A stretch of 32,065 nt of DNA, taken from NCBI GenBank assembly GCA_018499905.2, contig JAHBAU020000047.1, forward strand, positions 1 through 32,065, written 5' to 3'. The notes under the pieces were generated by a model. It saw nothing but the letters and a program-made list of their open reading frames with translations. It searched no databases and was not told where the DNA came from. Positions 16,464 through 32,065 of the stretch are shown piece by piece; position 1 is the first letter of the stretch, and each line of letters starts with the position of its first letter. The translations under genes were made by a program, and so were the position numbers. The stretch is from Candidatus Saccharimonadota bacterium. GTDB lineage: Bacteria; Patescibacteriota; Saccharimonadia; Saccharimonadales; AQU-01.

Positions 16464-17069
16464 CTAGTTACCTGTGGCTTTCGTGTTAGCACTGCTGATA
16501 AATAAAAATGGATTGTTTTTGGCAAACAAGGCGCGAATAGTGACCGTACAAGGATAGCGCGGATCGGAGGAGTTGGCTGAGCAAGTGATGTTCACCAAAT
16601 CGGCATTTTCAAATATCTTGTTGGCGGGATCCTTTAGATTAACCTGTATCTGGGTAGCGGTGTCATAGTCGGCAGCCATAGCTGTCAGGTCGATGCCGCC
16701 GCTGAGCTTGCTGATGCTAATGCCCGTAAGACTGGAATTGGCCGGCATGGCCGTTCCCACCTGTTGTAGTAGTTTGGAAAAGAGAATTTCACGCGAGAGT
16801 ACCTGCACCATTAACTTAAGACTGGATGAAATTTCTTCAACTCGCTTTTCTGTTTGCGAAAGCTGCTGATTCTCCAGGTCGAGTTTAGTTTTGGAAATTT
16901 GCTCGGAATAGGCGTTGGTTGCTTGGTTAATATAAAACAGGCCAAAAGCAACGATAAGCCCGGTACCGGCCATGCCGACTATGAGGCCTAGACACCACCT
17001 GAGAAGCTTACGATTGTGCCGTGCGTAAGCGATATTATTCTTGACGTCGGTAGGCAATAGATTGATCAT
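16464..17069 (-). CDS. pilN: Type IV pilus assembly protein PilN
   Basis: A 201-residue bitopic protein. The N-terminus MINLLPTDVKNNI is the conserved PilN tail that docks into PilM (consensus INLLP). One membrane helix (~residues 25-47), a coiled coil (SEQISKTKLDLENQQLSQTEKRVEEI) and a ferredoxin-like domain (SLTGISISKLSGGIDLTAMAADYDTATQIQ) follow. Its start overlaps the pilM stop by 4 nt and it is followed by pilO, the canonical order. Confidence 0.92.
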   Translation of the reverse strand: MINLLPTDVKNNIAYARHNRKLLRWCLGLIVGMAGTGLIVAFGLFYINQATNAYSEQISKTKLDLENQQLSQTEKRVEEISSSLKLMVQVLSREILFSKLLQQVGTAMPANSSLTGISISKLSGGIDLTAMAADYDTATQIQVNLKDPANKIFENADLVNITCSANSSDPRYPCTVTIRALFAKNNPFLFISSANTKATGN

Positions 17070-18154
17070 TCAAAAATCTCCGCCGGTTTTATCATAGCCA
17101 GCCCTGCGACGGTAATGAACATAGATTTTTCTGTTTCACTGGGCGGTTGCAGTTTGCCAAAGCTTATATGGTGCCATGGATCAGACATGCGGACCGGCAT
17201 ACGCAAACTATTGGTCATAAAATCACTCAGCCCAGGCATGTTTGCGCCGCCTCCCATGGTGACCAGCTGGCGAATCTTACGGTCGTTACCTTGGTATCGC
17301 TCTTCATAATAACGGATCATGCGCTTGATTTCTTTGAGCAGTTGGTCAAGGGTAGGTGTTAAAGCTTGGGTGATCTCATTCTGGCGCTTAGAAAAACTTA
17401 AGCCGTACTTAGTTTTAATAATCAGCGCTTCTTGTCGGGAAACACCGAGCTTTTGGGCAATCTGATCGGTAAAATTATCGCCACCACCCCGAACCGTTCC
17501 GGTAACCACCAGCGTTCGGTCGTAGATAGTTATATCGCTGGATACCGATCCAAAATCAACCAATACAGTAGGGACATCACTGAGCTCAGTTCTGACGAAA
17601 AGGCGGGTAGTCGCAGAAATTGTTGGCTCCATGGCAACAGCCTCAAGCCCTAATGTGCGGGCTAGCAAAAAGTATGAGTCAACAATCTTTTTCGGAACTG
17701 CTACAGCCAACAACTCAATTTCATCAGCGGTTCTATCGGTTATCATGTAGTCGATATACAGGTCATCGATGGCCATGGGGATATACTGCTCGGCCTCGGT
17801 TAGTACGGCTTCAGCTAGCTCTTTGCTATCCATCTTTGGCAGCTTAATCATGCGCAAGAATGTACGGGCGGCTGGTATGCTCATGGCTGCTCTACGGGTC
17901 GTAATTTCACCAATCAAACTTTGCTCGAACAGCTTTTTGGCGGATTGCGCCAGGGCCTCAATATTGACAATAACGCCATCTTTGTCGATAGCTTCTGGCT
18001 CAAATCGATTGACGCCGTAGCCGGTGACCTGAGGCTCCTTGCCACTGTAGTCAAACTGCATAACCTTCATCGAGCTAAAACCGATATCAAGGCCGAACAG
18101 CGGCTTGTCTCGGTAGAAGTGCGACCCCTTTTGCGTATTTTTATTCATGCTCAC
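17066..18154 (-). CDS. pilM: Type IV pilus actin-like ATPase PilM
   Basis: A 362-residue cytoplasmic protein of the actin/FtsA fold. Nucleotide-site motifs are LFGLDIGFSSMKVMQ (phosphate 1), VLVDFGSVSSDITIYDR (phosphate 2) and LVTMGGGANMPGLSDFM (adenosine). The family segment IPMAIDDLYIDYM is also present. PilM binds the PilN tail and couples the cytoplasmic ATPases to the periplasmic alignment complex. Starts at 18154 and 18148 are both possible; GGGTGA precedes them. A TATAAT lies about 37 nt upstream (18191-18196), so pilMNO and the PilP-like gene probably form their own transcript. Confidence 0.94.
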   Translation of the reverse strand: MSMNKNTQKGSHFYRDKPLFGLDIGFSSMKVMQFDYSGKEPQVTGYGVNRFEPEAIDKDGVIVNIEALAQSAKKLFEQSLIGEITTRRAAMSIPAARTFLRMIKLPKMDSKELAEAVLTEAEQYIPMAIDDLYIDYMITDRTADEIELLAVAVPKKIVDSYFLLARTLGLEAVAMEPTISATTRLFVRTELSDVPTVLVDFGSVSSDITIYDRTLVVTGTVRGGGDNFTDQIAQKLGVSRQEALIIKTKYGLSFSKRQNEITQALTPTLDQLLKEIKRMIRYYEERYQGNDRKIRQLVTMGGGANMPGLSDFMTNSLRMPVRMSDPWHHISFGKLQPPSETEKSMFITVAGLAMIKPAEIFE

Positions 18155-18190
18155 CCGATGGTTAATACTTCTTATGGTTACTTAGGCATC

Positions 18191-18196
18191 ATTATA
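18191..18196 (-). promoter_or_regulatory. -10 of the pilMNO operon
   Basis: A perfect minus-strand TATAAT just after the stop of the 633-residue prepilin gene and 36 nt before the pilM ATG. No clear -35 is visible. Confidence 0.5.
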
Positions 18197-18200
18197 TCAT

Positions 18201-20102
18201 TTATAGGGTCGGAACGAGATCTGCCGGACAGGTGCTGACATATGAGCTGCCAGCGAGCGCCCACTTTGCCCGGAAATATTCTTCTAACGCTTCTATTTGT
18301 CGGCAAGTCAATGCATAGTCATAGACGACAATCTCACCAAAGTCGCCATTAAAGAAATTAGTGCCACTTCCGGGCATGGCGCCGCTGCGTGTGCCGCCTA
18401 GGTACAATTGATCTATGCCATAGGTGTATGGTGATCCGCTGGGGCTATAGCCAGTATTCTGCGCAACTTGTGCGCCACCGCCTTTGAGAGTGCTGGTGAT
18501 TGTGTTGTTTGATGAGTTAATGGCAAAGCTACCAACATACAGGTAAGGCGTACTGTTGCAGGCTGCTGCGCAGGTAAAGTTTGTACGGTAGGTTGCCGAA
18601 TTGCCAGAGTATTGGCTTGAAAATCCCTGGCCATTATTGTAGCGCTCAAGCGGAATGATCGAAGTGCCACTGGTCGTATCATTCGTCCCTGAATTTGTCA
18701 TACCAGAAATGAGCCGCCCATCATTGGCAGAAGTGCCAAAATTCGCATTCACTAACGCAAACACGGTCATTTCGCGTTTGGCGCTCAAGGCACTGGTCAG
18801 ACTGCTTAACATGGTGCCGTTGTTGAACCGAGCGATCGTCTTGCCGTTAATCTGATTGTCTACCCGGGTTGGGGATGTACCATGTGCGCTAACGGCATGA
18901 TTGCCATTACCAGACTTGTCATTCCATTGCCCGACGGCTTCGCCATTATTTGCCTGACTGATCGATCCAGCTCCAGCAGCGTAGTTGATCGTCAATAAAT
19001 TACCGTTTTTCAACAGATGTCGACTGCCGCTTCCTGACACGCGCTGTATGGCAAACCCCATTCGACCGCCGCCAGTTGATGGATTCCAGTTCGCATTATT
19101 AACAATTTCTTGAACCACGCTGGTGACGTTGTACACAGTGTTGTTTCCGGGAGGGCAGTTATTATCGGATACATCAACATAGCTTGTTGTCCGTAGACTC
19201 GCAGTTGTTAGCGGTGTACGAAGCTCGTTAGTACCGCTAGATGTAAATAAGTCGGGGTGCAGGTTATTTGCCGCCTTGTAAATACCATATACCCTATGCG
19301 TGACGCTACCGCTGGCGCCAGCTGGAGTTGTGCAAGCTAGTGTGATTGATGCCGATGAAACAGTTGCCCCTTGCGGCACAGTTACGTTTGAGTAGATCAT
19401 TCCTATATTCAAATATCGGGTTGAAGAGCTTGAACAAACCGCACTAGAAAATTCACTGCTTTCGCAGTTGTGCATTTCAAAATCGTTACTTTGCCACGAA
19501 GCGGTTGTCTGAGAGCCATTATCCGCACGTTCTTCTTTGGTGTCGCGTGTTGAATCGCCTGCACTACCATAAGAGGTAGTTGGGGTAAGCGTGGTTGTTG
19601 CCGCCGTAACTTTATTGAGCGTTGTAAAGTCGCTTGCATCCAGCCATAGGAGTGGCGCAAAGTTATCGGGCGTCTTACAAGCCGCATATGTTCGTACGAT
19701 TTCAGAGCGTATGTCAAAAACGTATTGTGCGGTTGCTGACAGTTTGGGCAAGTAGACGCTCCCCGTTCCCTTAATCGTCTTTTCAAGTCCATCGACAGAG
19801 GTGCTGATTACTTCAGCTTTCATGGTTGTTCTGTAGCGGTTATTGCTAACCAAATCTGTTTCGGTCGTGCCTGTATAGTTCCCGCAAGTTGAGTTATCAA
19901 ACTGTTCCTGGGCAAAATCTATGGCTGCCTTGCTCGCGTTTCGGGCAATCTGGATGTAGGCTTGTTTGTAGGCAAGATTAAGGCCGTTATTTGCTTGCAA
20001 TAAGGCCGAGTAGGCAATAATGGCCATGAGTGACATGAGGACGATAACCGTTGGCATGACAAAGCCATGTTGTGAACGGGGTGGTTGCATACGTCGCTTC
20101 AT
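18201..20102 (-). CDS. PilX/GspK-like minor pilin with lectin-like and DNRLRE-like domains; putative tip adhesin
   Basis: A 633-residue protein. The N-terminus is prepilin-like (QHGF-VMPTVIVLMSLMAIIAYSALL), with a cleavage site after Gly13 but Thr instead of Glu at +5, as in tip subunits GspK/PilX. A helical stalk and disulfide-capable cysteines follow. LLWLDASDFTTL (151-162) starts a LamG-like concanavalin fold. It is interrupted at ~185-375 by a DNRLRE-like beta domain (YLNIGMIYSN, VSSASITLAC, HRVYGIYKAANN, YNVTSVVQEIV), then resumes at VGQWNDKSGNGNHA (390-403) to the end. Such lectin-like folds bind glycans or proteins. It overlaps the PilW-like gene by 4 nt. A pilus-tip adhesin is inferred. 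The distal part lacks catalytic motifs. Confidence 0.82.
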   Translation of the reverse strand: MKRRMQPPRSQHGFVMPTVIVLMSLMAIIAYSALLQANNGLNLAYKQAYIQIARNASKAAIDFAQEQFDNSTCGNYTGTTETDLVSNNRYRTTMKAEVISTSVDGLEKTIKGTGSVYLPKLSATAQYVFDIRSEIVRTYAACKTPDNFAPLLWLDASDFTTLNKVTAATTTLTPTTSYGSAGDSTRDTKEERADNGSQTTASWQSNDFEMHNCESSEFSSAVCSSSSTRYLNIGMIYSNVTVPQGATVSSASITLACTTPAGASGSVTHRVYGIYKAANNLHPDLFTSSGTNELRTPLTTASLRTTSYVDVSDNNCPPGNNTVYNVTSVVQEIVNNANWNPSTGGGRMGFAIQRVSGSGSRHLLKNGNLLTINYAAGAGSISQANNGEAVGQWNDKSGNGNHAVSAHGTSPTRVDNQINGKTIARFNNGTMLSSLTSALSAKREMTVFALVNANFGTSANDGRLISGMTNSGTNDTTSGTSIIPLERYNNGQGFSSQYSGNSATYRTNFTCAAACNSTPYLYVGSFAINSSNNTITSTLKGGGAQVAQNTGYSPSGSPYTYGIDQLYLGGTRSGAMPGSGTNFFNGDFGEIVVYDYALTCRQIEALEEYFRAKWALAGSSYVSTCPADLVPTL

Positions 20103-20821
20103 AAATTAACCTTCCGTAGCGTTACTGTTGAGCTGGCGAAGATATCTTCGGCAAACGCTTTATCTTTCAGCTGGATGTCGACCTTTATTTTTTCGGCAAG
20201 CTCAGGGCTGGTTACGACTGTGTTGCCAGTGTCGTAATAGGTGAGTGCAAAAGTGTTTAACTTGTCGGTAAGTAGCTTGTCTGGTGGGCAGGTTGCTGAT
20301 GCATTGGCGGCCGGACAGGTTTGCTTCTGAAAACTTGTGCCGCAGGTAGCCAAGGCCGCGGGAGCAGTCAGTGTTCGCTTATACAAGTTGGTGCCAGATA
20401 CAAAGTAGATTGTATTGTTATACAATTCATCATTTTGCTGGAGAACATCGTCGGGCGCGCAACCAAGTGTATTTATATACACGGGTTTCCGGTTTGGCGA
20501 TCGCTTATTTGTGGTTAGAGCAAGATCAGAAATTATCAGGGTAGGAGGGGTTGTAGCAGCGGTCCAGCCCCCACCAGGTTGATAGGTATCGGTTAAGTTG
20601 GCATTTTTGTCACTCTCAAATGATTTGGCAAATAGTATGTCGTCTTGCATGCCAAAGATAATATTCTGAGCCTCAACCTGCAGGTTGATCAAAGCGCCCT
20701 GCTGGGTCAGTTGTCCATATTGGTTAAAGAGGTAACTCATGAGAAGTACAACAGTTACCATGATGATTGGCGACATAATCAGCACTTCTATAAGCGTAAA
20801 GCCATCTTCTTTACTTTTCAT
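20099..20821 (-). CDS. PilW-like minor prepilin
   Basis: A 240-residue minor pilin. The class III signal is KEDG-FTLIEV, with cleavage after Gly and Glu at +5, followed by the hydrophobic helix (LIMSPIIMVTVVLLMSYLF; note an unusual Ser-Pro). Then comes the PilW-type stalk (QLTQQGALINLQVEAQNIIFGMQDDI) and a beta-rich globular part with cysteines (LGCAPDD, ATCGTSFQKQTC, ATCPP) that may form disulfides. Starts within the stop of the preceding minor pilin gene (ATGA) and overlaps the next by 4 nt, so all three minor pilins are co-translated. Minor pilins prime assembly and sit at the tip. Confidence 0.88.
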   Translation of the reverse strand: MKSKEDGFTLIEVLIMSPIIMVTVVLLMSYLFNQYGQLTQQGALINLQVEAQNIIFGMQDDILFAKSFESDKNANLTDTYQPGGGWTAATTPPTLIISDLALTTNKRSPNRKPVYINTLGCAPDDVLQQNDELYNNTIYFVSGTNLYKRTLTAPAALATCGTSFQKQTCPAANASATCPPDKLLTDKLNTFALTYYDTGNTVVTSPELAEKIKVDIQLKDKAFAEDIFASSTVTLRKVNL

Positions 20822-21237
20822 CGGCCAATCCCGTATTTTTGGATAAAGTTGGCATACTGAATCTGACGCTGACTGGCACCGCTGCCAAATTTTATATCAA
20901 CAACTACTTGCTTGAGTGTGCCCGAAACAGTATTCACATAAACAATACCTGTTCTTGGTTTTTCAAGTGTTGATGGCAAGCTTGCACTAAAATCTTCTAC
21001 TTGCTGCAGTGTCCCGGTCGGGGTAGTGGCAGGCAGGCTATTGAAGTTGAGGTTTTCATAGTCCTGGAGTTTCGCAAAGGCGATGGCGTTAGCAGTGTTA
21101 ATATCAACCGCTTTCTTATAGATATTCTGAATCGACGCAAAGCTGGTCACAAACGCACCAAAAGTCACGCCAATCACAATAAGCGTTATCAGCAGTTCGA
21201 CAACAGAAAAACCGTCTTTTTCGTCCAAAAGGCTCAT
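20818..21237 (-). CDS. PilV/PilI-like minor prepilin
   Basis: A 139-residue prepilin. Leader MSLLDEKDG, cleavage before Phe, then FSVVELLITLIVIGVTF with Glu at +5. A short beta domain follows (GIVYVNTVSGTLKQVVVDIKF). I place the start at the ATG at 21237; the frame extends further upstream but that part (LFCIIKIT) is not leader-like. A perfect TATAAT lies 10 nt before this ATG, which also supports it. First gene of a minor-pilin trio with overlapping junctions. Confidence 0.85.
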   Translation of the reverse strand: MSLLDEKDGFSVVELLITLIVIGVTFGAFVTSFASIQNIYKKAVDINTANAIAFAKLQDYENLNFNSLPATTPTGTLQQVEDFSASLPSTLEKPRTGIVYVNTVSGTLKQVVVDIKFGSGASQRQIQYANFIQKYGIGR

Positions 21238-21247
21238 GGTTATCTTT

Positions 21248-21253
21248 ATTATA
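21248..21253 (-). promoter_or_regulatory. -10 of the minor-pilin operon, near-leaderless
   Basis: A minus-strand TATAAT ending 10 nt before the ATG at 21237, without a Shine-Dalgarno. It begins 14 nt after the end of the pilin terminator stem, which separates the two transcripts. Confidence 0.6.
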
Positions 21254-21266
21254 CAGAACAACACTA

Positions 21267-21295
21267 AAAGAGAGGGCTATTTTGGCCCTCTCTTT
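21267..21295 (-). terminator. Intrinsic terminator after the major pilin gene
   Basis: An 11-bp perfect stem (21267-21277 with 21285-21295) and a 7-nt loop. On the minus strand the second arm runs into CTCTTTTAG. Placed 31 nt after the pilin stop, between it and the minor-pilin promoter. Confidence 0.85.
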
Positions 21296-21325
21296 ATTGG
21301 CTTCTCGGTAACCTATTAGAGTTAC

Positions 21326-21778
21326 TTAGTTCAGGTTGCTCTTGGCAAAGGTGCCACTACCTTCATATGTCGCGGTCATTGTGTAAACTGCACAGTCGTT
21401 TGTGCTGTTGTCACAAGCAGTGGTGCCATCGCTGGCAAATACTGCGTATGAGTAAACGTTAGCTGCGGCAGTTGCGGCAATGGTGCCGGATGTACCTTTA
21501 GGATCCTTCAATGCTTCAGCGTCAAGACCCTTCATGTTAGTGCCGCGCCACGTGGCATCGTTCAGATTGGCAAGCGTTGGGTATCTACCGTTTTGCGCGT
21601 AGTAAGCCTCTACTTGGCCATGGATAGCCTTAATGTCAGTTTGGCGCTCGGTGTTGCGACCCTTTTGTTGAATACCAGTAAATGTTGTGACGACGAGACC
21701 GGCCAAGATACCGATAACGACGATAACGATCAAGAGTTCCACGATAGTGAAACCGCTGCTCTTAAGTTGCTTTCTCAT
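21326..21778 (-). CDS. pilA: Major type IV pilin (PilA-like)
   Basis: A 150-residue prepilin that would build the pilus fibre. Leader MRKQLKSSG, cleavage before Phe, then the canonical FTIVELLIVIVVIGILAGLVV with Glu at +5. The helix continues as TERQTDIKAIHGQVEAYYAQNGRYPTL. A compact beta domain follows with a possible disulfide (TACDNSTNDCAVYT). It has its own promoter (TATAAT about 50 nt upstream) and its own strong terminator, as expected for the most abundant subunit. The gene lies between pilC and the minor pilins. No prepilin peptidase is present in the window. Confidence 0.92.
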   Translation of the reverse strand: MRKQLKSSGFTIVELLIVIVVIGILAGLVVTTFTGIQQKGRNTERQTDIKAIHGQVEAYYAQNGRYPTLANLNDATWRGTNMKGLDAEALKDPKGTSGTIAATAAANVYSYAVFASDGTTACDNSTNDCAVYTMTATYEGSGTFAKSNLN

Positions 21779-21827
21779 TGCTTTTAGTGCCCACCCTTTC
21801 TTAAAGGTTGTTTTTTTAATTATTTTG

Positions 21828-21833
21828 ATTATA
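21828..21833 (-). promoter_or_regulatory. -10 of the major pilin gene
   Basis: A minus-strand TATAAT (context CGTATAATCA) about 50 nt before the pilin ATG, leaving a real leader that contains AAAGGGTGGG. This contrasts with the leaderless starts nearby. Confidence 0.5.
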
Positions 21834-21875
21834 CGAGGTAAGTGTACAACGCCTAAAGCATAAGCGCAAGTAATT

Positions 21876-23099
21876 TTATTCGGTGCCGACGTTCTGGCTT
21901 AATGACGAGATCGGACCCATGACACTGGCTGCAATTAAGCCCACCATGCCACCGAGTACAATAATCATCAACGGCTCGATGATAGAACTCAGCCCATCAA
22001 TAACTGCATCAACCTCTTCTTCGTAGAAATCTGCAACCTTTATGAGGATTGTGTCGATCTGCCCCGTTTCTTCACCAACTGTTAGCATTTGCGCGACGAT
22101 AGGCGGGAAGTGCTTGCTGGCCGATAGTGGTTCCGACAGCTGCTTACCGTTTTTGACCTGCTGTGCAGCATCCTTGAGCTCGGCTTCAATAACCTTATTA
22201 CCAATGGCGCCACCGGTGACATTCAGTGCTTCGAGTACGCCAACACCGGCAGACATGAGTGATGCAAAGGTGCGAGCAAAACGGGCTATAGCCATCTTGA
22301 TGATAATGGTCTTAATAACCGGTGTTTTGAGTAAAAGACTGTGAAACTGATATTTGCCTTTCGGTGTCTTAATGTAACGTCTGAGCAACCAACTGCCGAC
22401 ACCTAAGACAATAAAGATTAAAATGGCGTTCTTTTGCATAAAACTGCTAGCCGAGAGCATGGCTCGTGTGTAGACGGGCAATTCGCCTTTGCCGTCGCTC
22501 AAATCTTCGAGGATTTTGCCAATCTTAGGTATGACAAAAAACATGATGCCAAAGAATGCGATGACGGTGATGGATAGAATAGCCACCGGATAGGTCATGG
22601 CGCTTTTAACTTTTTTGCGGATACTGGCATCTTTTTCTACCTGTGCAGCTAGCCGCTTCAGAATTTCGTCTAAGATACCGCCGGCTTCACCAGCTCGAAC
22701 CATATTGACGTATACATCAGAAAACGCCTCTGGAAATTTAGCAAGAGAATCGCCAAGGGGCTGCCCGGCCTCAACATCCTTGATAATGACACCAATGATT
22801 TCGGCAAAATGCTTGTTGTCGGCTTGCGCCTGCAGCATGGTGAGTGACCTTGTTAAAGGCACGCCCGCGGCAATCGTTGTCGATAACTGTCGTGTAAAGA
22901 TGACAACGTCCTTGAGCTTTACTTTCTTCCCGCGCTTGAACTTGGCGAGTATGCCGCCACCAGAGCGAACTTGTTTAATAAGAATTGGTCGAAAGCCCTG
23001 GCGTTTTAAATTGGCGGCCACGACCTCACGATCGGTTGCTTCTACCTCACCGGTGACATTCTTTCCATCTTTAGATTTAGCAGTGTAATGAAATCGCAT
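21876..23099 (-). CDS. pilC: Type IV pilus platform protein PilC
   Basis: A 407-residue polytopic inner-membrane protein on which pilins are assembled. The N-terminus (MRFHYTAKSKDGKNVTGEVEATD...LKRQGFRPI) is typical. Two repeated GspF domains follow, each with a cytoplasmic helical bundle: FTRQLSTTIAAGVPLTRSLTML...DSLAKFPEAFSDVYVNMVRAGEAGG and FARTFASLMSAGVGVLEALNVTGG...PIVAQMLTVGEETGQID. Three membrane helices are visible, the last near the C-terminus (IEPLMIIVLGGMVGLIAASVM). It starts 2 nt after the pilB stop, hence one transcript. Confidence 0.96.
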   Translation of the reverse strand: MRFHYTAKSKDGKNVTGEVEATDREVVAANLKRQGFRPILIKQVRSGGGILAKFKRGKKVKLKDVVIFTRQLSTTIAAGVPLTRSLTMLQAQADNKHFAEIIGVIIKDVEAGQPLGDSLAKFPEAFSDVYVNMVRAGEAGGILDEILKRLAAQVEKDASIRKKVKSAMTYPVAILSITVIAFFGIMFFVIPKIGKILEDLSDGKGELPVYTRAMLSASSFMQKNAILIFIVLGVGSWLLRRYIKTPKGKYQFHSLLLKTPVIKTIIIKMAIARFARTFASLMSAGVGVLEALNVTGGAIGNKVIEAELKDAAQQVKNGKQLSEPLSASKHFPPIVAQMLTVGEETGQIDTILIKVADFYEEEVDAVIDGLSSIIEPLMIIVLGGMVGLIAASVMGPISSLSQNVGTE

Positions 23100-23101
23100 A
23101 A

Positions 23102-24913
23102 TTATTTTTCTGAGGTGACTCTCAAGATTTCTTCTATGGTGGTCGAACCGCGTAGAGCTTTGATAAAGCCATCAAGCTGCATGGTAACCATACCGTCTTT
23201 AATTGCCTGACTCTGAATGGCGTCACTGGTTGAATCGGATACGATGAGTTTTTGGACTTCAGTTGAGCTCGGCAGAACTTCATAGATGCCCATGCGACCC
23301 TTATAGCCGATGTGTCCGCAGTTTTCACAGCCGCCATCATGTACTTTCCAAAGGCGAGTGATTTTGGATTCGGTGGTACTAAGTTCGGTAGTCGATGCCT
23401 TGCCTGATTTTGCGTTCGCTTTGCCGATACCACCATCCAAAGCTTGCTTTTCAAGCTCGTGCACTTGTTTCATGACACTGGTATCGTCGGTATGAAAAAT
23501 TTCGTTGATTTGCTTGATATCGGCTTCGTTTGGCTCGTAAATCTCGCGGCAGTCAACACACAAACGACGAACAAGTCGCTGTCCAACGACTGCTCGAACA
23601 GTGCTGGCAATCAGGAATGGCTCAATGCCCATATCAAGAAGGCGTGGCAAGCAAGTAGCCGCATTGTTGGTGTGCAGCGTCGAAAACACCAAGTGCCCGG
23701 TTAGGGCGGCCTGCACGCCAAGGTTGGCGGTTTCGGAATCGCGAATCTCGCCGACCATGATGATGTTTGGATCTTGCCGAAGCAAAGCTCGGAGCCCATT
23801 GACGAATGTCATGCCGGCTTGGGGATTAACTTGCGTCTGGTTGGTGCCTGGTACTCGGTATTCCACCGGGTCTTCGACTGTCGAAATATTAACAGAAGGC
23901 TTATTCAACATACTCAGCACGCTAAACAGGCTAGTAGACTTGCCCGAACCAGTCGGTCCGGTTACTAATATCATGCCATGCGGCTGGACAATAGCTTTAT
24001 TGATATTTTGCAGCGCGGTACCCCAATAGCCCAGCTCTTCAAGTGTTGCCGCTTTAGACGACTCATTCAAGATACGCATGACTACTTTTTCGCCATCGAC
24101 AATCGGCAGAGTAGAGACACGCAGGGCATAAATCTGGCCACTAACTTGCACCTTAAAGCGGCCGTCCTGTGGTGCACGGCGTTCGTCAATCTTCAGATTC
24201 GATAAGATCTTGATACGTGAAACGAGTGCACCTAGAACTTTCTTGGGTAGCTTGTTCGCCTCACGTAATATGCCGTCAACACGGTATCGGACTAATACGG
24301 AATTTTCTCTTGGTTCAATATGGATATCGCTCGCACCTGATTTAACAGCGTACTCGATGATTAAATTGACGGTTTGAGCAATTGGCGAATCTTCGGCCAA
24401 GTCCTCTTCGTCAATCTCTTCTTCATCTTCTTCTTCGGACTCTTCCGGGGTCATGACTTTAGTGAGTTCGCTGGAAATGTTGCCCCGGTACTGATCAAGC
24501 GCCGCCTGAATATTGGTGCTGGTCGCAATATGCACCTTTAGGTCGGTGCCAAGCTGTTTTTGCAGAAAGTTGATTGCCTGAATATCATCAGGGTCTTCCA
24601 TGGCCAGAAGCTTTTTGCCATCATCATCGTTCCCAAACACCACAACTTTGTATTGCCGGGCAATTCGTTCGGGAATTTCTTTTAGCACCTCTCGCCTGAT
24701 GTCTTTAGCATTGAGCTCGATATACGGAACGTCGGCCTCAGCTGCGTATAGCTTTGTCAGCTCTTTCTCTGACAAAATACTGTTCTTAACCACCAGGTCT
24801 TGCAGGGGCTTTTTTTCGGTTTTGGCCTGTTCATGCAGGGCCGTCAACTGTTCATCGGTTGTTTTGGTGGCCGATTTTAACAGTTTTTCGACTATAGCGT
24901 CAGATACTCTCAT
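23102..24913 (-). CDS. pilB: Type IV pilus assembly ATPase PilB
   Basis: A 603-residue extension motor of the GspE/PilB family. An N-terminal MshEN-like region (~1-145) is followed by an acidic linker (EESEEEDEEEIDEED). The ATPase core contains Walker A GPTGSGKST (319-327), Asp box STVEDPVEYR (345-353), Walker B IIMVGEIRD (384-392) and His box TGHLVFSTLHTN (405-416). The zinc-binding cysteines are Cys452, Cys455, Cys529 and Cys532; the 73 residues between the pairs, rich in Ser/Thr/Lys, look longer than usual. TATAAT lies 18 nt upstream (24932-24937) with no Shine-Dalgarno. No retraction ATPase PilT is in the window. Confidence 0.96.
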   Translation of the reverse strand: MRVSDAIVEKLLKSATKTTDEQLTALHEQAKTEKKPLQDLVVKNSILSEKELTKLYAAEADVPYIELNAKDIRREVLKEIPERIARQYKVVVFGNDDDGKKLLAMEDPDDIQAINFLQKQLGTDLKVHIATSTNIQAALDQYRGNISSELTKVMTPEESEEEDEEEIDEEDLAEDSPIAQTVNLIIEYAVKSGASDIHIEPRENSVLVRYRVDGILREANKLPKKVLGALVSRIKILSNLKIDERRAPQDGRFKVQVSGQIYALRVSTLPIVDGEKVVMRILNESSKAATLEELGYWGTALQNINKAIVQPHGMILVTGPTGSGKSTSLFSVLSMLNKPSVNISTVEDPVEYRVPGTNQTQVNPQAGMTFVNGLRALLRQDPNIIMVGEIRDSETANLGVQAALTGHLVFSTLHTNNAATCLPRLLDMGIEPFLIASTVRAVVGQRLVRRLCVDCREIYEPNEADIKQINEIFHTDDTSVMKQVHELEKQALDGGIGKANAKSGKASTTELSTTESKITRLWKVHDGGCENCGHIGYKGRMGIYEVLPSSTEVQKLIVSDSTSDAIQSQAIKDGMVTMQLDGFIKALRGSTTIEEILRVTSEK

Positions 24914-24931
24914 AGGTTGTCTTTAGTCGTC

Positions 24932-24937
24932 ATTATA
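24932..24937 (-). promoter_or_regulatory. -10 of the pilB-pilC operon
   Basis: A minus-strand TATAAT ending 18 nt before the pilB ATG, which would give a leader of roughly 11 nt with no ribosome site. A small hairpin, CTTTGT/ACAAAG (24963-24977), lies upstream and could end the preceding transcript. Confidence 0.5.
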
Positions 24938-24995
24938 TAGTAAAACGCTTATGCTGGCATATCTTTGTCACACAAAGTGGCTGGCACATTCTTTC

Positions 24996-25571
24996 TTAAA
25001 AGAACTGGCTCTTCGAACCGCAGTTCACGCAATAGCCCGGATGATTCATGGGCTGCCCCTGATGTGAGCGACACGAGCCTTTTATGCAATAGTACACCGA
25101 GCTGTTGGCATCCCAGCTACTCAGTGTTGCACTGCTCACATAGCCAGAAAGGTACTTTTGGGCAACAGCTTTACAGGTGGCAGTATCACCTGCATTACAA
25201 AAACGGATACTAATTTGGTAGGTGTGCTGCGGCCCGTTGCCATCAGGCGGCCAGTTATCGTAGTCATAGACCGTGCCAGGCCAAGGAGCATCAGGCCACG
25301 AGTTGTTGAAACCATCGGACTGGATAAACTCCTTCATACCCGCCGGAATATCTCTGACGACATCAGGGGGGTAGTCATTATATTTTGCAACATAAAGTGT
25401 CATAGCATTGCCGAGAGTATTGAGCTCAGATATTGCCCGGGTGTAGTAAGTGCGGCTTCGGTAGCGTGGCAAGGCATAACTATAGGTAAAACCAGCAATG
25501 ACGCCTATTAAAACGATAACCATCACGATTTCGACAATGGTAAAGCCACGGGTGTTTGCTTTGGTGCCCAT
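24996..25571 (-). CDS. Cys-rich prepilin-like protein
   Basis: A 191-residue prepilin. Leader MGTKANTRG, cleavage before Phe10, FTIVEIVMVIVLIGVIAGF with Glu at +5, then the helix with YYTRAISELNTLGNAMTLYVAKYNDYPPD, typical of GspG/PilE-like subunits. The C-terminal third holds six cysteines (125, 133, 162, 167, 181, 184), the last two as CVNCG, which look like disulfides or a small metal site. I set the start at the ATG at 25571: the frame extends upstream, but a TGG-TACTAT ends 6 nt before this ATG. Separated from pilB by 82 nt, so probably transcribed on its own. Role among the pilins unknown. Confidence 0.85.
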   Translation of the reverse strand: MGTKANTRGFTIVEIVMVIVLIGVIAGFTYSYALPRYRSRTYYTRAISELNTLGNAMTLYVAKYNDYPPDVVRDIPAGMKEFIQSDGFNNSWPDAPWPGTVYDYDNWPPDGNGPQHTYQISIRFCNAGDTATCKAVAQKYLSGYVSSATLSSWDANSSVYYCIKGSCRSHQGQPMNHPGYCVNCGSKSQFF

Positions 25572-25577
25572 ACATGA

Positions 25578-25586
25578 ATAGTACCA
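25578..25586 (-). promoter_or_regulatory. Extended -10 (TGG-TACTAT), leaderless
   Basis: On the minus strand TGG then TACTAT ends exactly 6 nt before the ATG at 25571. There is no Shine-Dalgarno. Confidence 0.55.
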
Positions 25587-25670
25587 AAGCATAACCATCA
25601 TCACCACTGCAATATTGCCGCATATGGCTTTTCTAGAAAATATAACAACAGATAAGAGGCGTTCATCCTG

Positions 25671-25676
25671 TATAAT
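25671..25676 (+). promoter_or_regulatory. -10 of the bL25 gene
   Basis: A perfect TATAAT in the context CTGTATAATGG, followed by a leader of about 22 nt that contains a strong AAGGAGGG. This is a conventional promoter plus ribosome site, unlike many genes here. Confidence 0.6.
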
Positions 25677-25705
25677 GGTGCTACAGAACAAGGAGGGATA
25701 TACCA

Positions 25706-26426: not shown

Positions 26427-28922
26427 GTGAACAGAAGACCCTCTAGGATAAATAAAATTAGGCTGAAGACGAAGTATGGCCGAAAGTTCAAGTTTCTTTG
26501 GGCAGGTTTGTTCGCCGCTTTTGGTGCCTGGGCTCTAATAGCCAGTTTTGCCGCCACTGCAACCGGTACTTGGGTGAATATAACACCTCCACCGCCGGCT
26601 GACTTTAATCTTGTCCCTTATGTAAATTACGGCGCCCAAACGATAGTCGCAGCACCCAGCAACCCAAACGTGGTCTACCTAGGGTCTTGCTTGCAAGGCA
26701 TCTTTAAAACCACTGATAAAGGTGTAACCTGGACCAAGGTGAATACCGGGACAAAAAGCAATGAGCTTGATGCCGGGCGCAACTGGACTTTGGCGGTAGA
26801 CCCGACAAACGAAAACATCCTATATACGGTTTCGGGGTATTCTTATCCCGGTTTGTACAAGTCAACTGATGGCGGAGTAAATTGGCAGCAAATGATCCCG
26901 GCCAACATTAGTCAGCAAATTCTAAATCCTTGGGGCTCCCAGAGCAACCCGTATAGCATTGCTATCAATCCTGCAAATAGCAATCACTTGCTTGTAACGT
27001 TCCATGCAAACTGGGGTAATAACAGCTCTGGTTTGATCGAATCGCGTGACGGCGGGCAGTCTTGGACTATTCACCAAGCTGGTAGTGGCAGCTGGGGATC
27101 TGGTCACTACGTCTTTTTTGTTACTCCATCAATCTGGATGGTGGGCACACAAGAAGATGGTATATGGCGGTCAACCAACGAGGGTGCAACTTGGACCAAG
27201 GTGTCGAGCAATAATATACAGCACGGAGCCGCTCAACAATATCGCGCATCAGACGGTAGGCTTTATATGAGTACTTCCTCAACCATTATGCGTAGTTCTG
27301 ACGACGGAGCAACCTGGACAAATATTGGACCTTCTGGCAGTTTTGGTGCAGTAATTGGTGATGGCACAAATCTATACACCATCGCAAGTTGGACAAATAA
27401 TGCCAAGTGGTATGTTTCTGATGAGAGTGCTGGCGGTACAAATTGGCGTGAATTTAATAGCCAGGGCTTTAATAACGGAGTAATGAGTATGACCTTTGAC
27501 CCAGTGAATAGGATAGTCTACTCATCTAACTGGGAAATTGGCGTCTGGAAGCTGCAAGTTGGTGGTTCGCCAGCCCCTAATCCTACGCCAACTCCTACAC
27601 CCACGCCAACGCCGGCGCCTACGCCCGTACCGCCACCCACCCCTACACCCGCGCCTGCAAAATTCACAACGCTACCTGTCGGTGCCACCTTACCCAGTGA
27701 ATCTACTTGTACTTCGCAGGTCAAAGCTGCTGCCGAGATACGGCCAGGAAATGCGGTACCAAACGCCACGAGAGGCAGCGGCGGCAATTATGTCTTCCCA
27801 AATGTGACAGGTAATTTCATCGGAACCACAGATGAGATTATCCAGTGGGCGGCTTGCAAGCATGGGATGGACGAGGATTTGCTGCGAGCGCAGATGGCGA
27901 CCGAATCGTATTGGCACCAAAGCGGTATCGGTGACTTTGCGACCGATGCAGCACTTTGCTCACCTGTTTATCCGATTAAGACCTACCCAGCACAGTATAA
28001 CGGTGACGGCCAACACATAAACCAGTGTCCCGAATCAGTTGGCATGTCGCAGGTTCGTTGGGCATATCACAAGAGCGCTTTCTTTAGCAGCACGACCGAG
28101 AACTCTAGCACAATGACGAGCAACGCTATATTTTCTACCGCTTATAACCTGGATTATTATGGAGCTGTCTGGCGTGACTGCTTCAATGGCAACATGACCT
28201 GGCTCAATACCGTCGAACGAGGTGCTACCTATGCAGCCGGCGATGCGCAAGGCTGCCAAGGCGTATGGTTCTCGGGTCGTTGGCGCACCCAACCAGCAAT
28301 CGATTACATTGCTGCTGTTCAGTCCAACCTTACGAGCCGAATCTGGGAAACCACCGGATTTAAGAATTCTCAACCAGTCAATACTATGCCAGTACCTTCA
28401 CCGTCACCAACACCTACTCCAACCCCTACGCCTACTCCAACCCCGACGCCCACTCCGCCGCCAGTCGACTCGACACCTCCCACAGTTAGCCTTACGGCAC
28501 CGGCTAACGGATCAACCGTCTCGGGCACCATAGCAGTGACGGCAACGGCCACAGACAGTGTCGGTGTTGCAAAAGTCGAACTCTTAGTGGATGGGGCAGT
28601 TCGTGTCACTGACGCCCTTAGCCCGTTTAGCTTTACGCTCAATACTACAACCTTGACCGATAGCTCGCACACAATTACCGCCAAAGCCTATGACACAGCA
28701 GGGAATACCAGTACGAGTAGCGTGACAATCACTGTCAAAAACACAGTAACCCTCAAGGCGGGCGATGTTAACGGCGACAACAAGATAGATATCTTCGATT
28801 TATCACTACTGCTTGGTAACTACGGCAAGGCGACAGCAACCCGCTCTCAAGGAGATTTGAACGCCGACTCGAAGATCGATATCTTCGATCTTTCAATATT
28901 GTTGGGTGCATGGGGTGGATAA
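26427..28922 (+). CDS. Exported dockerin protein: Asp-box repeats, lysozyme-like domain, Ig-like domain, dockerin
   Basis: An 831-residue exported protein. A basic start and hydrophobic segment (24-44) form the signal or anchor. Residues ~50-380 carry five Asp-box (BNR) repeats: TTDKGVTW, STDGGVNW, SRDGGQSW, STNEGATW and SSDDGATW, suggesting a beta propeller. After a Thr/Pro linker (384-410) comes a lysozyme/lytic-transglycosylase-like domain (~413-645): DEDLLRAQMATES with candidate catalytic Glu493, ESVGMSQVR (536-544), NLDYYGAVW. A second Thr/Pro linker, an Ig-like domain (683-771) and a type I dockerin (778-831) follow, with both Ca-binding loops intact (D-x-N-x-D-x3-D-x2-D). GTG start at 26427, with weak ribosome site. 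Enzyme activity is inferred. Confidence 0.85.
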   Translation: MNRRPSRINKIRLKTKYGRKFKFLWAGLFAAFGAWALIASFAATATGTWVNITPPPPADFNLVPYVNYGAQTIVAAPSNPNVVYLGSCLQGIFKTTDKGVTWTKVNTGTKSNELDAGRNWTLAVDPTNENILYTVSGYSYPGLYKSTDGGVNWQQMIPANISQQILNPWGSQSNPYSIAINPANSNHLLVTFHANWGNNSSGLIESRDGGQSWTIHQAGSGSWGSGHYVFFVTPSIWMVGTQEDGIWRSTNEGATWTKVSSNNIQHGAAQQYRASDGRLYMSTSSTIMRSSDDGATWTNIGPSGSFGAVIGDGTNLYTIASWTNNAKWYVSDESAGGTNWREFNSQGFNNGVMSMTFDPVNRIVYSSNWEIGVWKLQVGGSPAPNPTPTPTPTPTPAPTPVPPPTPTPAPAKFTTLPVGATLPSESTCTSQVKAAAEIRPGNAVPNATRGSGGNYVFPNVTGNFIGTTDEIIQWAACKHGMDEDLLRAQMATESYWHQSGIGDFATDAALCSPVYPIKTYPAQYNGDGQHINQCPESVGMSQVRWAYHKSAFFSSTTENSSTMTSNAIFSTAYNLDYYGAVWRDCFNGNMTWLNTVERGATYAAGDAQGCQGVWFSGRWRTQPAIDYIAAVQSNLTSRIWETTGFKNSQPVNTMPVPSPSPTPTPTPTPTPTPTPTPPPVDSTPPTVSLTAPANGSTVSGTIAVTATATDSVGVAKVELLVDGAVRVTDALSPFSFTLNTTTLTDSSHTITAKAYDTAGNTSTSSVTITVKNTVTLKAGDVNGDNKIDIFDLSLLLGNYGKATATRSQGDLNADSKIDIFDLSILLGAWGG

Positions 28923-28957
28923 GACAATGATGTATAGTTACAATAAAGGGAAACAAT

Positions 28958-31447
28958 ATGAAGAAAAAAATTAGATCAAAGGCCTTCTCTAAAAACTACA
29001 GCCTCTGGCTTTGGGGCGGTCTTTTTATGATTATTGGTGGTGCGACCCTAATGATTATCCGAGCAGCAGTTCCACTAACCATCGACACCTCATTGCCCGT
29101 ACCGCAAAATGTCAGAACTTATAGCGATGATCGCAATATGACAGTCACCTGGGATCCAGTAGGCGTCAATCAGACGCGAGTTATTGGCTACTACATTACG
29201 TACCGTACCAAAGGTTCTTCCGAGGAGTTTAAGGTTCGTCAAACCGAAGTAAGAAGAGATCAATATTATGAGTATGCCCCTGCCATTCAGCTACAACCAC
29301 TTACCAATGGTCAAGAGTATGAGGTCTACGTTCAGTCGGCCTCAGGAACTTTTGTTAACGTCGACGCGGGACCACTCGTTTACGACGGGACCAACAAGTG
29401 GGGTAAGGCTGATGGCAAAGTTTCCAATAAGTCGGCTGTAGCCTACGGCACTCCATCTTCCGCCCGTGTCGATGCTATGCGCACTCGACTAACTGGCTTC
29501 TTTGATGATTTTAATACTGTCGCTGGCCCCATGGATGAGCTCAAATGGAATAACTCCACAAATTCTTGCGCCAAGGCGGGCACGGCCTCGGCCTTTATTA
29601 ATGATCAATTCCATGCGCACAATACCGTTGGCTCCAACGCTGCGGGCAGCGTTTTCTGTGATCGCGCTGGTATAGCATCAAGGCCTCGAGCAGTGTTTGA
29701 TATGACAAATGTCACCGAATCGAATCCAGGCCAAATCGAATTTGATATTGATGGCGCAACACATCATCGCGACACTTGGTACCTCGATCTAGTTCCGCTG
29801 TCGGCGCGCACAAACAAACTGCCGCTTGACATCACCTCGCACAACGATCTGTTTGATGCAGACACCGAAAACCCCGGAAATATGCTCAGATTTAATGGGA
29901 ACAGCGGCAGTCTAACAGTTCCCTATTACAACAATAGTCAAGACCCTAACCCAGTTAATCTATTCAGAGGCTCGAGTGCCTGTCAGGATTGGCATGGTGG
30001 TTTTAAAGTGGATTACGATTCATGTGATATGTCGCAAAAGACCAGCGGTCTAAGCTCGCTTGCTGAACCGACAATATCACCCGACCCCATACCAAACGTT
30101 CGAAGGCACTGGGTTATCCAATTCACGCCCACCAAAATCAGAGTCTTTATAGATAGCACACTCATTGCCGTTGCCGATATGCCTACCGGACTCTTTGCAG
30201 AAAAGAAATTCACGGTTCAATCAACCGTGTTCTCATACAACACTGGAAAAACCGACGGCTTTGATCCTGGCCCAATCCCGACAGTAGAAATGATCCATTG
30301 GGATAACTTTGGCTTTAATGGACCGTCGACACCCGAAGTCGTTCACAATTACATGGAAGGCGGCGCAACCGGCACCAATCCAGTTTATGCGAACGGAGAT
30401 TCTAGCGGCTACAGCGTGCCATCAGGCAGTCGAAAGACTATTGTTCCAATCCCTGACACTATAGGAAATCTGGTCAACAATCAGGCCAGATTGTTCTACT
30501 CAACCACCGGGTTCTCATATAACTATGGTTATTGGACGCCAGGTGACCATATTCTCGTCAATGGGAAGCGTTACGACGTGCCAAATCCCAATACGCAGAT
30601 GTCTATAGTTTCCGATCCGCTTGGCTCTAACTTTATGGTGACAGCCTTTACGCTGCCAATTGCCAAATCGGATCTCGTGACAGGTCCCAACAATGTTGAA
30701 TTCAAATTTGCCGATCCAGATCTGAGTTTTGTAAATGTACATATCGAATTACCTTACAGTAGTAGCGATAGCTCACGTCCGTCTTATACACAGCCACTGA
30801 CTATTTTTGGAACAAAATTCTATGATATTGCACAGCCGCCAATTACTAACTGCGATCAATATCGCTATGTCGAGCAAGATCTGGGTCTCCCTTACCAAAC
30901 AGGAAAGGCCAACCTCGTAACTGGTGGCGAATGTGTACTGTTGCCAAAGGGATCACACCATAACACCGGTACAACACCACCGCCAACAACCGATACCGCT
31001 GCTCCGACAGTATCGCTCCTGACGCCAACGGCTGGTGCAACAGTTAATGGTAGCGTTTCTGTGTCTGCATCTGCCACTGATGCGGTTGGTGTGGTAAAAG
31101 TAGAGTTCTTGGTTGACGGCGTGCTAAAGACTACCGATTCAACGAGTCCTTACACCTACAACTGGGATAGCTCAAGTTCGGCTGATGGGACACGTACGCT
31201 GACGGCGAAGGCCTATGACGCAGCGGGTAACTCAAATACCAGCAGCATTGCAGTTACTGTAAAAAACGCTGTAGCGGTCAAGGCCGGTGATGTAAACAGT
31301 GACAACAAAGTTGATATATTCGACCTATCTATCTTACTAGGCAACTATAGCAAGACATCAACCACGCGCTCGCAAGGTGACCTCAATGCTGACTCCAAGA
31401 TCGACATTTTCGACCTATCCATCCTACTTGGGGCATGGGGGAGCTAA
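28958..31447 (+). CDS. Exported dockerin protein: Fn3-like, beta-sandwich region, Ig-like domain, dockerin
   Basis: An 829-residue protein. A basic start and one hydrophobic segment (16-35) form the signal or anchor. A fibronectin III-like domain (~47-163: PVPQNVRTY, MTVTWDP, GYYITYRT, LTNGQEYEVYVQS) is followed by a large beta-rich region (~180-455: FFDDFNTVAG, EFDIDG, WVIQFTPTKIRVFIDSTLI, HWDNFGF) that resembles concanavalin-like sandwiches. A further beta-rich region of unknown type spans ~470-660. An Ig-like domain (683-770) and dockerin (778-829) close the protein, both very like those of the upstream gene, so they share ancestry. No catalytic motif is recognised. AAAGGG precedes the ATG. 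Confidence 0.83.
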   Translation: MKKKIRSKAFSKNYSLWLWGGLFMIIGGATLMIIRAAVPLTIDTSLPVPQNVRTYSDDRNMTVTWDPVGVNQTRVIGYYITYRTKGSSEEFKVRQTEVRRDQYYEYAPAIQLQPLTNGQEYEVYVQSASGTFVNVDAGPLVYDGTNKWGKADGKVSNKSAVAYGTPSSARVDAMRTRLTGFFDDFNTVAGPMDELKWNNSTNSCAKAGTASAFINDQFHAHNTVGSNAAGSVFCDRAGIASRPRAVFDMTNVTESNPGQIEFDIDGATHHRDTWYLDLVPLSARTNKLPLDITSHNDLFDADTENPGNMLRFNGNSGSLTVPYYNNSQDPNPVNLFRGSSACQDWHGGFKVDYDSCDMSQKTSGLSSLAEPTISPDPIPNVRRHWVIQFTPTKIRVFIDSTLIAVADMPTGLFAEKKFTVQSTVFSYNTGKTDGFDPGPIPTVEMIHWDNFGFNGPSTPEVVHNYMEGGATGTNPVYANGDSSGYSVPSGSRKTIVPIPDTIGNLVNNQARLFYSTTGFSYNYGYWTPGDHILVNGKRYDVPNPNTQMSIVSDPLGSNFMVTAFTLPIAKSDLVTGPNNVEFKFADPDLSFVNVHIELPYSSSDSSRPSYTQPLTIFGTKFYDIAQPPITNCDQYRYVEQDLGLPYQTGKANLVTGGECVLLPKGSHHNTGTTPPPTTDTAAPTVSLLTPTAGATVNGSVSVSASATDAVGVVKVEFLVDGVLKTTDSTSPYTYNWDSSSSADGTRTLTAKAYDAAGNSNTSSIAVTVKNAVAVKAGDVNSDNKVDIFDLSILLGNYSKTSTTRSQGDLNADSKIDIFDLSILLGAWGS

Positions 31448-31452
31448 GCATG

Positions 31453-31458
31453 TATAAT
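31453..31458 (+). promoter_or_regulatory. -10 of the cohesin gene
   Basis: A perfect TATAAT in the context CATGTATAATTT, 20 nt before the ATG at 31479. GGGAAAGGA lies between them as ribosome site. A similar TACAAT precedes the second dockerin gene, so the three genes may have separate starts. Confidence 0.5.
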
Positions 31459-31478
31459 TTAGGGAAAGGACAGATAGC

Positions 31479-32046
31479 ATGAGGGTAAAACTGAAAAGAT
31501 TTGTTTCGCCGCCGACTTTAGCGATTGCGCTAGCTTTTATTGTCGCTGGCCTGGGCTTAAGCAGTGTGAAAGGCGCGGGTTCCGCGAGCCTAACATTGTC
31601 GCCATCGAGCGGCTCTGTACTGAATGGCAATAACATCACAGTATCGGTCTACGAGAACTCAGGTGCCGAAGCAGTGAATGCTGTACAGGTTGATTTGTCA
31701 TATGACGCAGCAAAATTACAATATGTCTCGGCAGATATTTCCGGTAGCCCATTTAACGTTGGTGTCAGCCCCAGCGGTGGCAGCGGTTCAGTCAGCTTCT
31801 CGCGAGGTTTGATAGGTAGTACCACCGGCAGTCAATTAGTTGGTCGGGTAACATTTAAAGCGCTTGCCGGCAGTGGCTCTACTGCTGTGAACTTTGGCGG
31901 CGGTTCGGCTATCGTCAGATTGTCTGATAGCCAGAACATCTGGAATGGTTCAACCGGTGGCGGTAGCTACTCGCTGACATCACCGGCAACACCTCCGCCG
32001 GCGCCTACACCTTCACCTAGCCCAACCCCTAGCCCTTCTCCTAGCC
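31479..32046 (+). CDS. Exported cohesin-domain protein, 3' truncated (putative scaffoldin)
   Basis: An incomplete gene running into the contig end. A signal peptide (MRVKLKRF, then PTLAIALAFIVAGLGL, likely cleavage near the GAGSA at 33-36) is followed by a cohesin domain (~36-168). Its strand pattern is SLTLSPSSGSVLNGNNITVSVYEN, AVNAVQVDLSYDAAKLQYVSAD, GSVSFSRG, LVGRVTFKAL and AIVRLSDSQNIW. A Pro/Ser/Thr-rich linker (PAPTPSPSPTPSPSPSP) begins just where the contig breaks, so more domains probably follow. Cohesins bind dockerins with high affinity, and both preceding genes encode dockerins, hence a probable receptor. A surface anchor cannot be seen. The last bases belong to adapter. Confidence 0.85.
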
Positions 32047-32065
32047 CTGTCTCTTATACCCATCT
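32047..32065. other. Nextera/Tn5 mosaic-end adapter at contig end
   Basis: Reverse complement of the mosaic end with one mismatch (C at 32060 instead of A). The apparent residues VSYTH at the end of the cohesin frame come from it. Confidence 0.95.

Follow-up and report, generated by a model that had tools for sequence, protein, structure and literature searches.

A cohesin–dockerin locus in a draft Saccharibacteria genome is one instance of an order-wide system for the likely display of enzymes at the cell surface

Introduction

It has long been asked how CPR epibionts, whose genomes are tiny, open host cells or stay attached to them, and the locus described here bears on whether such a bacterium plugs enzymes into a socket on its own surface. 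The window, which is the whole stretch of 32,065 nucleotides that was analysed, corresponds to the whole of contig C27 in the 48-contig draft genome of a probably parasitic member of the Saccharimonadales, with a size of 1.09 Mb and a completeness of 91%. At its right end lie three co-directional genes, P1, P2 and P3, separated by gaps of 35 and 31 bases (Table 1). The original prediction described two consecutive exported proteins ending in intact two-loop type I dockerins and a next gene that opens with a signal peptide followed by a cohesin, and read them as a self-contained, cellulosome-like module in a CPR-type, probably epibiotic bacterium, suggestive of a cell-surface complex that handles the wall or glycans of another cell.

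Table 1. Features at the right end of the window, in positions of the 32,065-nucleotide stretch
Feature	Position	Strand	Basis
P1, 831-aa exported cargo protein ending in a dockerin	26427..28922	+	Pfam scan; N-terminal hydrophobic segment aa 21-39
P1 BNR/sortilin-type beta-propeller region	26547..27581	+	PF15902, 3e-12; NCBIfam glycosyl_F510_1955, 2e-21, under its cut-off
P1 putative lytic-transglycosylase/glucosaminidase-like domain	27657..28382	+	Motifs; dockerin fusion in G039 and G090
P1 Big_7 Ig-like spacer	28479..28682	+	PF17957, 73 bits
P1 dockerin type I, two complete Ca loops	28758..28901	+	PF00404 over cut-off; 73 bits with profile without own genome
P2, 829-aa exported cargo protein ending in a dockerin	28958..31447	+	Pfam scan
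P2 fn3 domain	29102..29347	+	PF00041, 30.6 bits
P2 central region, function unassigned; common to G005 (53%/45%, two halves) and G090	29363..30982	+	tblastn
P2 Big_7 Ig-like spacer	31004..31207	+	PF17957, 73.7 bits
P2 dockerin type I, two complete Ca loops	31283..31426	+	PF00404 over cut-off; 73 bits with profile without own genome; modelled
P3, cohesin protein, cut by contig end inside Pro/Ser/Thr linker	31479..32046	+	Open frame
P3 signal peptide region	31497..31580	+	Hydrophobic segment aa 7-34
P3 cohesin domain	31581..31979	+	PF00963 over cut-off; 152 bits with profile without own genome; fold matches solved cohesins
Sequencing adapter (taken to be Nextera mosaic end, 1 mismatch; not genomic)	32047..32065	.	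Sequence read directly

Results

Domain content of the three genes

The P3 cohesin, which directly follows the N-terminal hydrophobic signal, scores 30.1 bits against the Pfam Cohesin profile (cut-off 24.1), and the dockerins at the extreme C-termini of P1 and P2 score 23.8 and 25.7 bits against Dockerin_1 (cut-off 22.9). With profiles built without this genome the scores are 152 bits for the cohesin and 73.3 and 73.4 bits for the P1 and P2 dockerins, compared with a best of ~10 bits for 600 shuffled proteins, and none of the other reading frames of the window reaches 8 bits. Both calcium loops are complete in each dockerin (DVNGDNKIDIFD / DLNADSKIDIFD in P1 and DVNSDNKVDIFD / DLNADSKIDIFD in P2), and Asp at positions 1 and 12 of both loops is invariant in 40/40 dockerin proteins examined. 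The domain assignments of the original prediction, together with the Pfam check it had proposed for them, are borne out for all three genes. Scans for promoters and terminators gave results at chance level. Type IV pilus genes (PilM, an assembly ATPase, a PilC-type protein and a pilin-like protein) and a ComEC-like competence gene lie near the locus, in regions 17066-25691 (minus strand) and 9781-11229 (plus strand).

P1 consists of a hydrophobic signal, a BNR/sortilin-type propeller, a P/T linker, a domain of ~240 aa, a second linker, Big_7 and the dockerin. The central domain had no significant match to Pfam or the PDB in profile and single-sequence searches, its AlphaFold model (five sequences) was poor, and a fold search with that model returned no significant match; among its 23 weak fold matches are the lytic transglycosylases MltE and MltF and two peptidoglycan hydrolases. 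An E-S...G-x-x-Q-V...A-x-N motif is invariant in five homologues, a pattern that resembles lytic transglycosylases, and the domain may be a lytic-transglycosylase-like enzyme. Dockerin fusions of the domain are also found in G039, where it is 67% identical, and in G090. The same genome carries a dockerin-less paralogue of the domain, ~50% identical, on contig C33 (L196 3236-4333, G000:C33), which has a weak Glucosaminidase match (E 0.016).

P2 runs from a signal through fn3, a long unassigned region and Big_7 to the dockerin, and the Pfam scan recognised no enzyme domain in it. In G090, a single protein that adjoins a cohesin anchor combines the P2 central region, the P1 enzyme-like domain and a dockerin; because of this fusion, it is suggested that P1 and P2 act together.

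Predicted structure

The modelled chain joined the P2 dockerin to the P3 cohesin by reading through the stop and taking one frame step, and AlphaFold with 110 relatives gave a pLDDT of 84 and a pTM of 0.74, with a disordered linker. The cohesin makes up 56% of this chain and alone would give, by an inferred comparison of length, a pTM of roughly 0.56; therefore the dockerin also appears to be placed fairly confidently. The predicted model is in this respect consistent with docking, so that neither the cohesin match nor the model refutes the original prediction by its own conditions. The best PDB matches in a fold search of the model are cohesins from cohesin–dockerin complexes, and the cohesin model compares with solved cohesins at a best E of 1.5e-10 and a TM by target of 0.70-0.79 for the best five. 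The family profile matches known cohesins and known dockerins among PDB sequences; a single-sequence PDB search with the P3 cohesin found nothing useful.

The contig end and the expected anchor

Bases 32047-32065 (CTGTCTCTTATACCCATCT) are what we take to be the Nextera mosaic (transposon) end with one mismatch. The residues 'VSYTH' that close the P3 open frame are therefore an artefact and P3 is truncated by the assembly, so that the end of P3 at 32046, as originally predicted, is correct. The adapter may also remain on other contigs of the assembly. An overlap search for the missing half of P3 gave no match, nor did a search with the C-terminus of a relative, which is an uninformative negative. 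Most likely P3 ends in a membrane helix beyond the contig end, because complete relatives mostly carry one.

Across the order a membrane helix follows the cohesin in 48 of 55 cohesin proteins that lack a dockerin, while 11 of the 13 that have one carry no membrane helix (48/55 vs 2/13, p = 1.3e-6). The helix and the C-terminal dockerin thus replace each other in these proteins, which fall into two kinds, anchors and adaptors. In G053 and G064 a cargo gene is followed by an adaptor gene and then by an anchor gene. The most cellulosome-like arrangement observed in the order occurs in G096, G145 and G171 (L129, L131 and L133), where a three-cohesin scaffold with a C-terminal dockerin lies beside a two-cohesin membrane anchor. 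At least 11 of 48 anchor cytoplasmic tails share a motif near their end, roughly P-(G)-x-V-I-x-P (L062, L064, L066, L068, L070, L074, L129, L135, L152 and L165), hinting at a common cytoplasmic partner, and Lys/Ala-rich tails occur at L060, L141 and L145.

A second pair in the same genome

Another dockerin–cohesin pair lies on contig C42. Its first gene encodes a polysaccharide deacetylase that ends in a dockerin, and a complete cohesin gene follows 10 bases on. The cohesin protein has a signal peptide, one cohesin and a linker, then a membrane helix (aa 216-237) and a cytoplasmic tail rich in Lys and Ala, and is probably the template for a complete P3. At recognition positions 10-11 the dockerin loops read IF/IF in C27 and AL/AL in C42, and because of this difference the two pairs are suggested to use separate partners. 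No further cohesins were found in this genome besides P3 and the C42 anchor. On another contig (L061 2457-2756, G000:C3), a small protein without a signal peptide has two single dockerin-like calcium loops (DVNKDGQVNMAD twice).

Distribution and cargo

Among the 393 genomes of the order, Pfam detects a cohesin in 54, a dockerin in 100 and both in 47 (p = 2.5e-25, uncorrected for shared ancestry), and a dockerin lies within 3 kb of the cohesin in 41 of the 54 cohesin genomes. In 22 tandem gene pairs the dockerin precedes the cohesin with gaps of -14 to +209 bases; other pairs are convergent. For 31 neighbouring pairs, cohesin similarity and dockerin similarity are correlated in a Mantel test (r = 0.54, 0/5000 permutations, shared ancestry uncorrected). 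It should be noted that the Pfam cohesin went undetected in 339 of the 393 genomes, and because most genomes of the order have no detected cohesin, it is not universally needed there.

A cohesin profile built from the order was applied to the 53 genomes with only a dockerin by Pfam and recovered a cohesin in 11, in every case ~2.5 kb or less from the dockerin. Family f35 accounts for 36 of the 42 dockerin genomes still without a cohesin. Many genomes of this family (L169-L188, e.g. L172 and L182) have dockerin proteases (papain-type, and subtilase with LRR) and no detectable cohesin, and their dockerins look closer to the classical clostridial ones; the partner of the f35 dockerins could lie on another cell.

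The order-built profile matches 162 of 380 genomes across the phylum, with a specificity that is uncalibrated outside the order. Of the 14 best-scoring loci fetched from outside the order, nine combine the cohesin with a dockerin, either within one protein or at most ~1.5 kb away, and where the dockerin is a separate gene it lies upstream on the same strand. As judged from these sequence matches, the cohesin–dockerin system also occurs in other classes of the Patescibacteria. The genomes of relatives measure ~0.5-1.6 Mb, and 9 of 21 relatives, including one of the same family, contain the TM7-type 16S motif AAACATAAAGGAATTGACGG, presumably that of a TM7 probe; the motif is absent from the present draft, which may lack 16S. 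The 16S motif and the genome sizes are the grounds for taking the order as Saccharibacteria and, together with the 1.09 Mb of the present draft, agree with the CPR-type genome first proposed.

Among 40 cargo proteins examined, Big_7 occurs in 19, fn3 in 15 and polysaccharide deacetylase in five; other recognised domains include subtilase in two, GH26, CBM6/35 and an amidase that carries four peptidoglycan-binding repeats.

Discussion

Likely function of the locus

The genes P1 to P3 probably form a surface-display unit in which a membrane-anchored cohesin shows dockerin-bearing enzymes active on walls, glycans or proteins, likely against the cell on which the bacterium grows. P1 and P2 would be exported and their calcium-stabilised C-terminal dockerins would plug into the cohesin of P3, which would itself be exported and kept in the membrane by a C-terminal helix. 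The cargo would thereby be held at the cell surface rather than lost, and would likely be used to attack locally the envelope of the cell that the small bacterium grows on, or to attach to that envelope. Docking and display are likely, and action on a host cell is plausible; the cargo set of this genome and its relatives, with the putative lytic-transglycosylase-like P1, the C42 deacetylase and the relatives' amidase, subtilase and GH26, would be the means. The N-termini of the cargo might, on the other hand, be uncleaved anchors, and if so the cohesin would be unneeded for retention.

The cohesin–dockerin pair and the cell-surface complex of the original prediction are supported, and the types of cargo make another cell's wall or glycans a plausible target. 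The module is not isolated, as had been supposed, and is instead one instance of a system that extends through the order and into other Patescibacteria classes, and the genome has a second pair on C42. Of the likeness to a cellulosome the docking principle stands and the multi-cohesin scaffold does not, as there is mostly one cohesin per anchor, with few exceptions.

Alternative explanations

A cellulosome-type machine that degrades plant or environmental polysaccharides for feeding would account for the three-cohesin scaffolds and two-cohesin anchors of G096, G145 and G171 and for the GH26 or CBM6/35 domains on some cargo, but it is quite improbable here, since neither the window nor the C42 pair contains a cellulase or a cellulose-binding scaffold, the anchors are mostly single-cohesin, and the recognised cargo enzymes are mainly deacetylases, proteases and an amidase. 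A several-cohesin scaffoldin, by which a cellulosome is recognised, was not found in this genome, where the read part of P3 and the C42 anchor carry one cohesin each, and no cellulase or hemicellulase occurs among its three cohesin-paired dockerin proteins, with a GH26 in one relative. That the docked enzymes instead serve to remodel peptidoglycan or a surface polymer of the bacterium itself is a possibility we consider unlikely: deacetylases and amidases are also used in self-modification and a tether in its own membrane puts enzymes at its own wall, but there are subtilases among the cargo and a papain-type protease and LRR proteins in cohesin-less genomes, and the patchy distribution speaks against a housekeeping role.

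Display of active enzymes must also be weighed against adhesion, in which docking would build a surface layer of Ig and propeller proteins and the enzymes would be incidental. The frequency of Big_7 (19/40) and fn3 (15/40) in dockerin proteins, many of which have no recognisable enzyme, and P2, which has none either, are what such a coat would predict; the recurrence of catalytic families among the cargo in several families of the order argues against it and leaves this reading doubtful. It is scarcely credible that C27 was mis-binned from another phylum, for which the 48-contig state of the draft is the one point in favor, as the same architecture is found across many families of the same order, homologues of the P1 domain lie on the genome's own contig C33 and in G039 and G090, and C42 holds a second pair. 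Contamination as the source of the locus was rejected on the order-wide architecture, the C33 homologue and the C42 pair.

Relation to known systems

The clostridial and ruminococcal cellulosomes (type I/III) use the same two domain families and the same docking principle, and adaptors and scaffolds occur in some of the relatives. The anchors here differ from theirs in ending in a membrane helix instead of an SLH domain or a sortase signal and in usually having one cohesin; the cargo here consists of deacetylases, an amidase, proteases and Ig-rich proteins, with no cellulose-binding scaffold or cellulase seen. The Clostridium perfringens NagJ cohesin–NagH dockerin pair and the Archaeoglobus cohesin are among the top PDB relatives by sequence and fold, and share with the present system a non-cellulosomal use of cohesin and dockerin. 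In non-cellulosomal systems of the C. perfringens NagJ and Archaeoglobus type the cohesin lies within a secreted glycoside hydrolase; here it is on a dedicated membrane anchor whose gene adjoins the cargo gene.

Within the Saccharibacteria, Southlakia epibionticum has an envelope-associated dockerin protein, SEML1_0315, that was essential in a screen and for which its authors suggested host glycans as the target; the likeness is that of a saccharibacterial envelope-associated dockerin protein, and no cohesin is mentioned (PMC10633639). In the Ca. Shapirobacterales (Microgenomates), another CPR lineage with both domains, cohesin and dockerin genes are expressed and were read as a cellulosome, in a passage that does not take up gene pairing, anchor architecture or cargo (PMC9123182). 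The animal neural proteins TMEM132 are single-pass membrane proteins that resemble the present system in their extracellular cohesin and Ig-type domains, but have no known dockerin partner (PMC6030884). The paired membrane-anchored cohesin–dockerin architecture was not found described in the open-access literature. What is described here is a conserved cohesin–dockerin system, likely for surface display, in the Saccharibacteria, for which the principle is known and the anchor type, cargo and host are new.

Implications

A wider and rather speculative reading, which we hold to be distinctly unlikely, is that in the Patescibacteria generally a membrane-anchored cohesin with interchangeable dockerin cargo serves as a modular rack that turns enzymes and adhesins against host cells, and that lineages without a cohesin dock their dockerin enzymes onto the cohesins or other receptors of neighbouring cells. 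A conserved socket-and-plug system by which enzymes that degrade walls and proteins stay on the surface is a concrete candidate answer to how these epibionts open their host cells or hold on to them, and it is linked to a dockerin protein found essential in a saccharibacterium that is cultivated and genetically tractable (PMC10633639). The system would also widen the natural diversity of cohesin–dockerin pairs, which is useful for protein-complex building. Since such pairs recur throughout the order and also in further CPR classes, docking may be a widespread way for these bacteria to hold wall- and protein-cutting enzymes at the cell surface.
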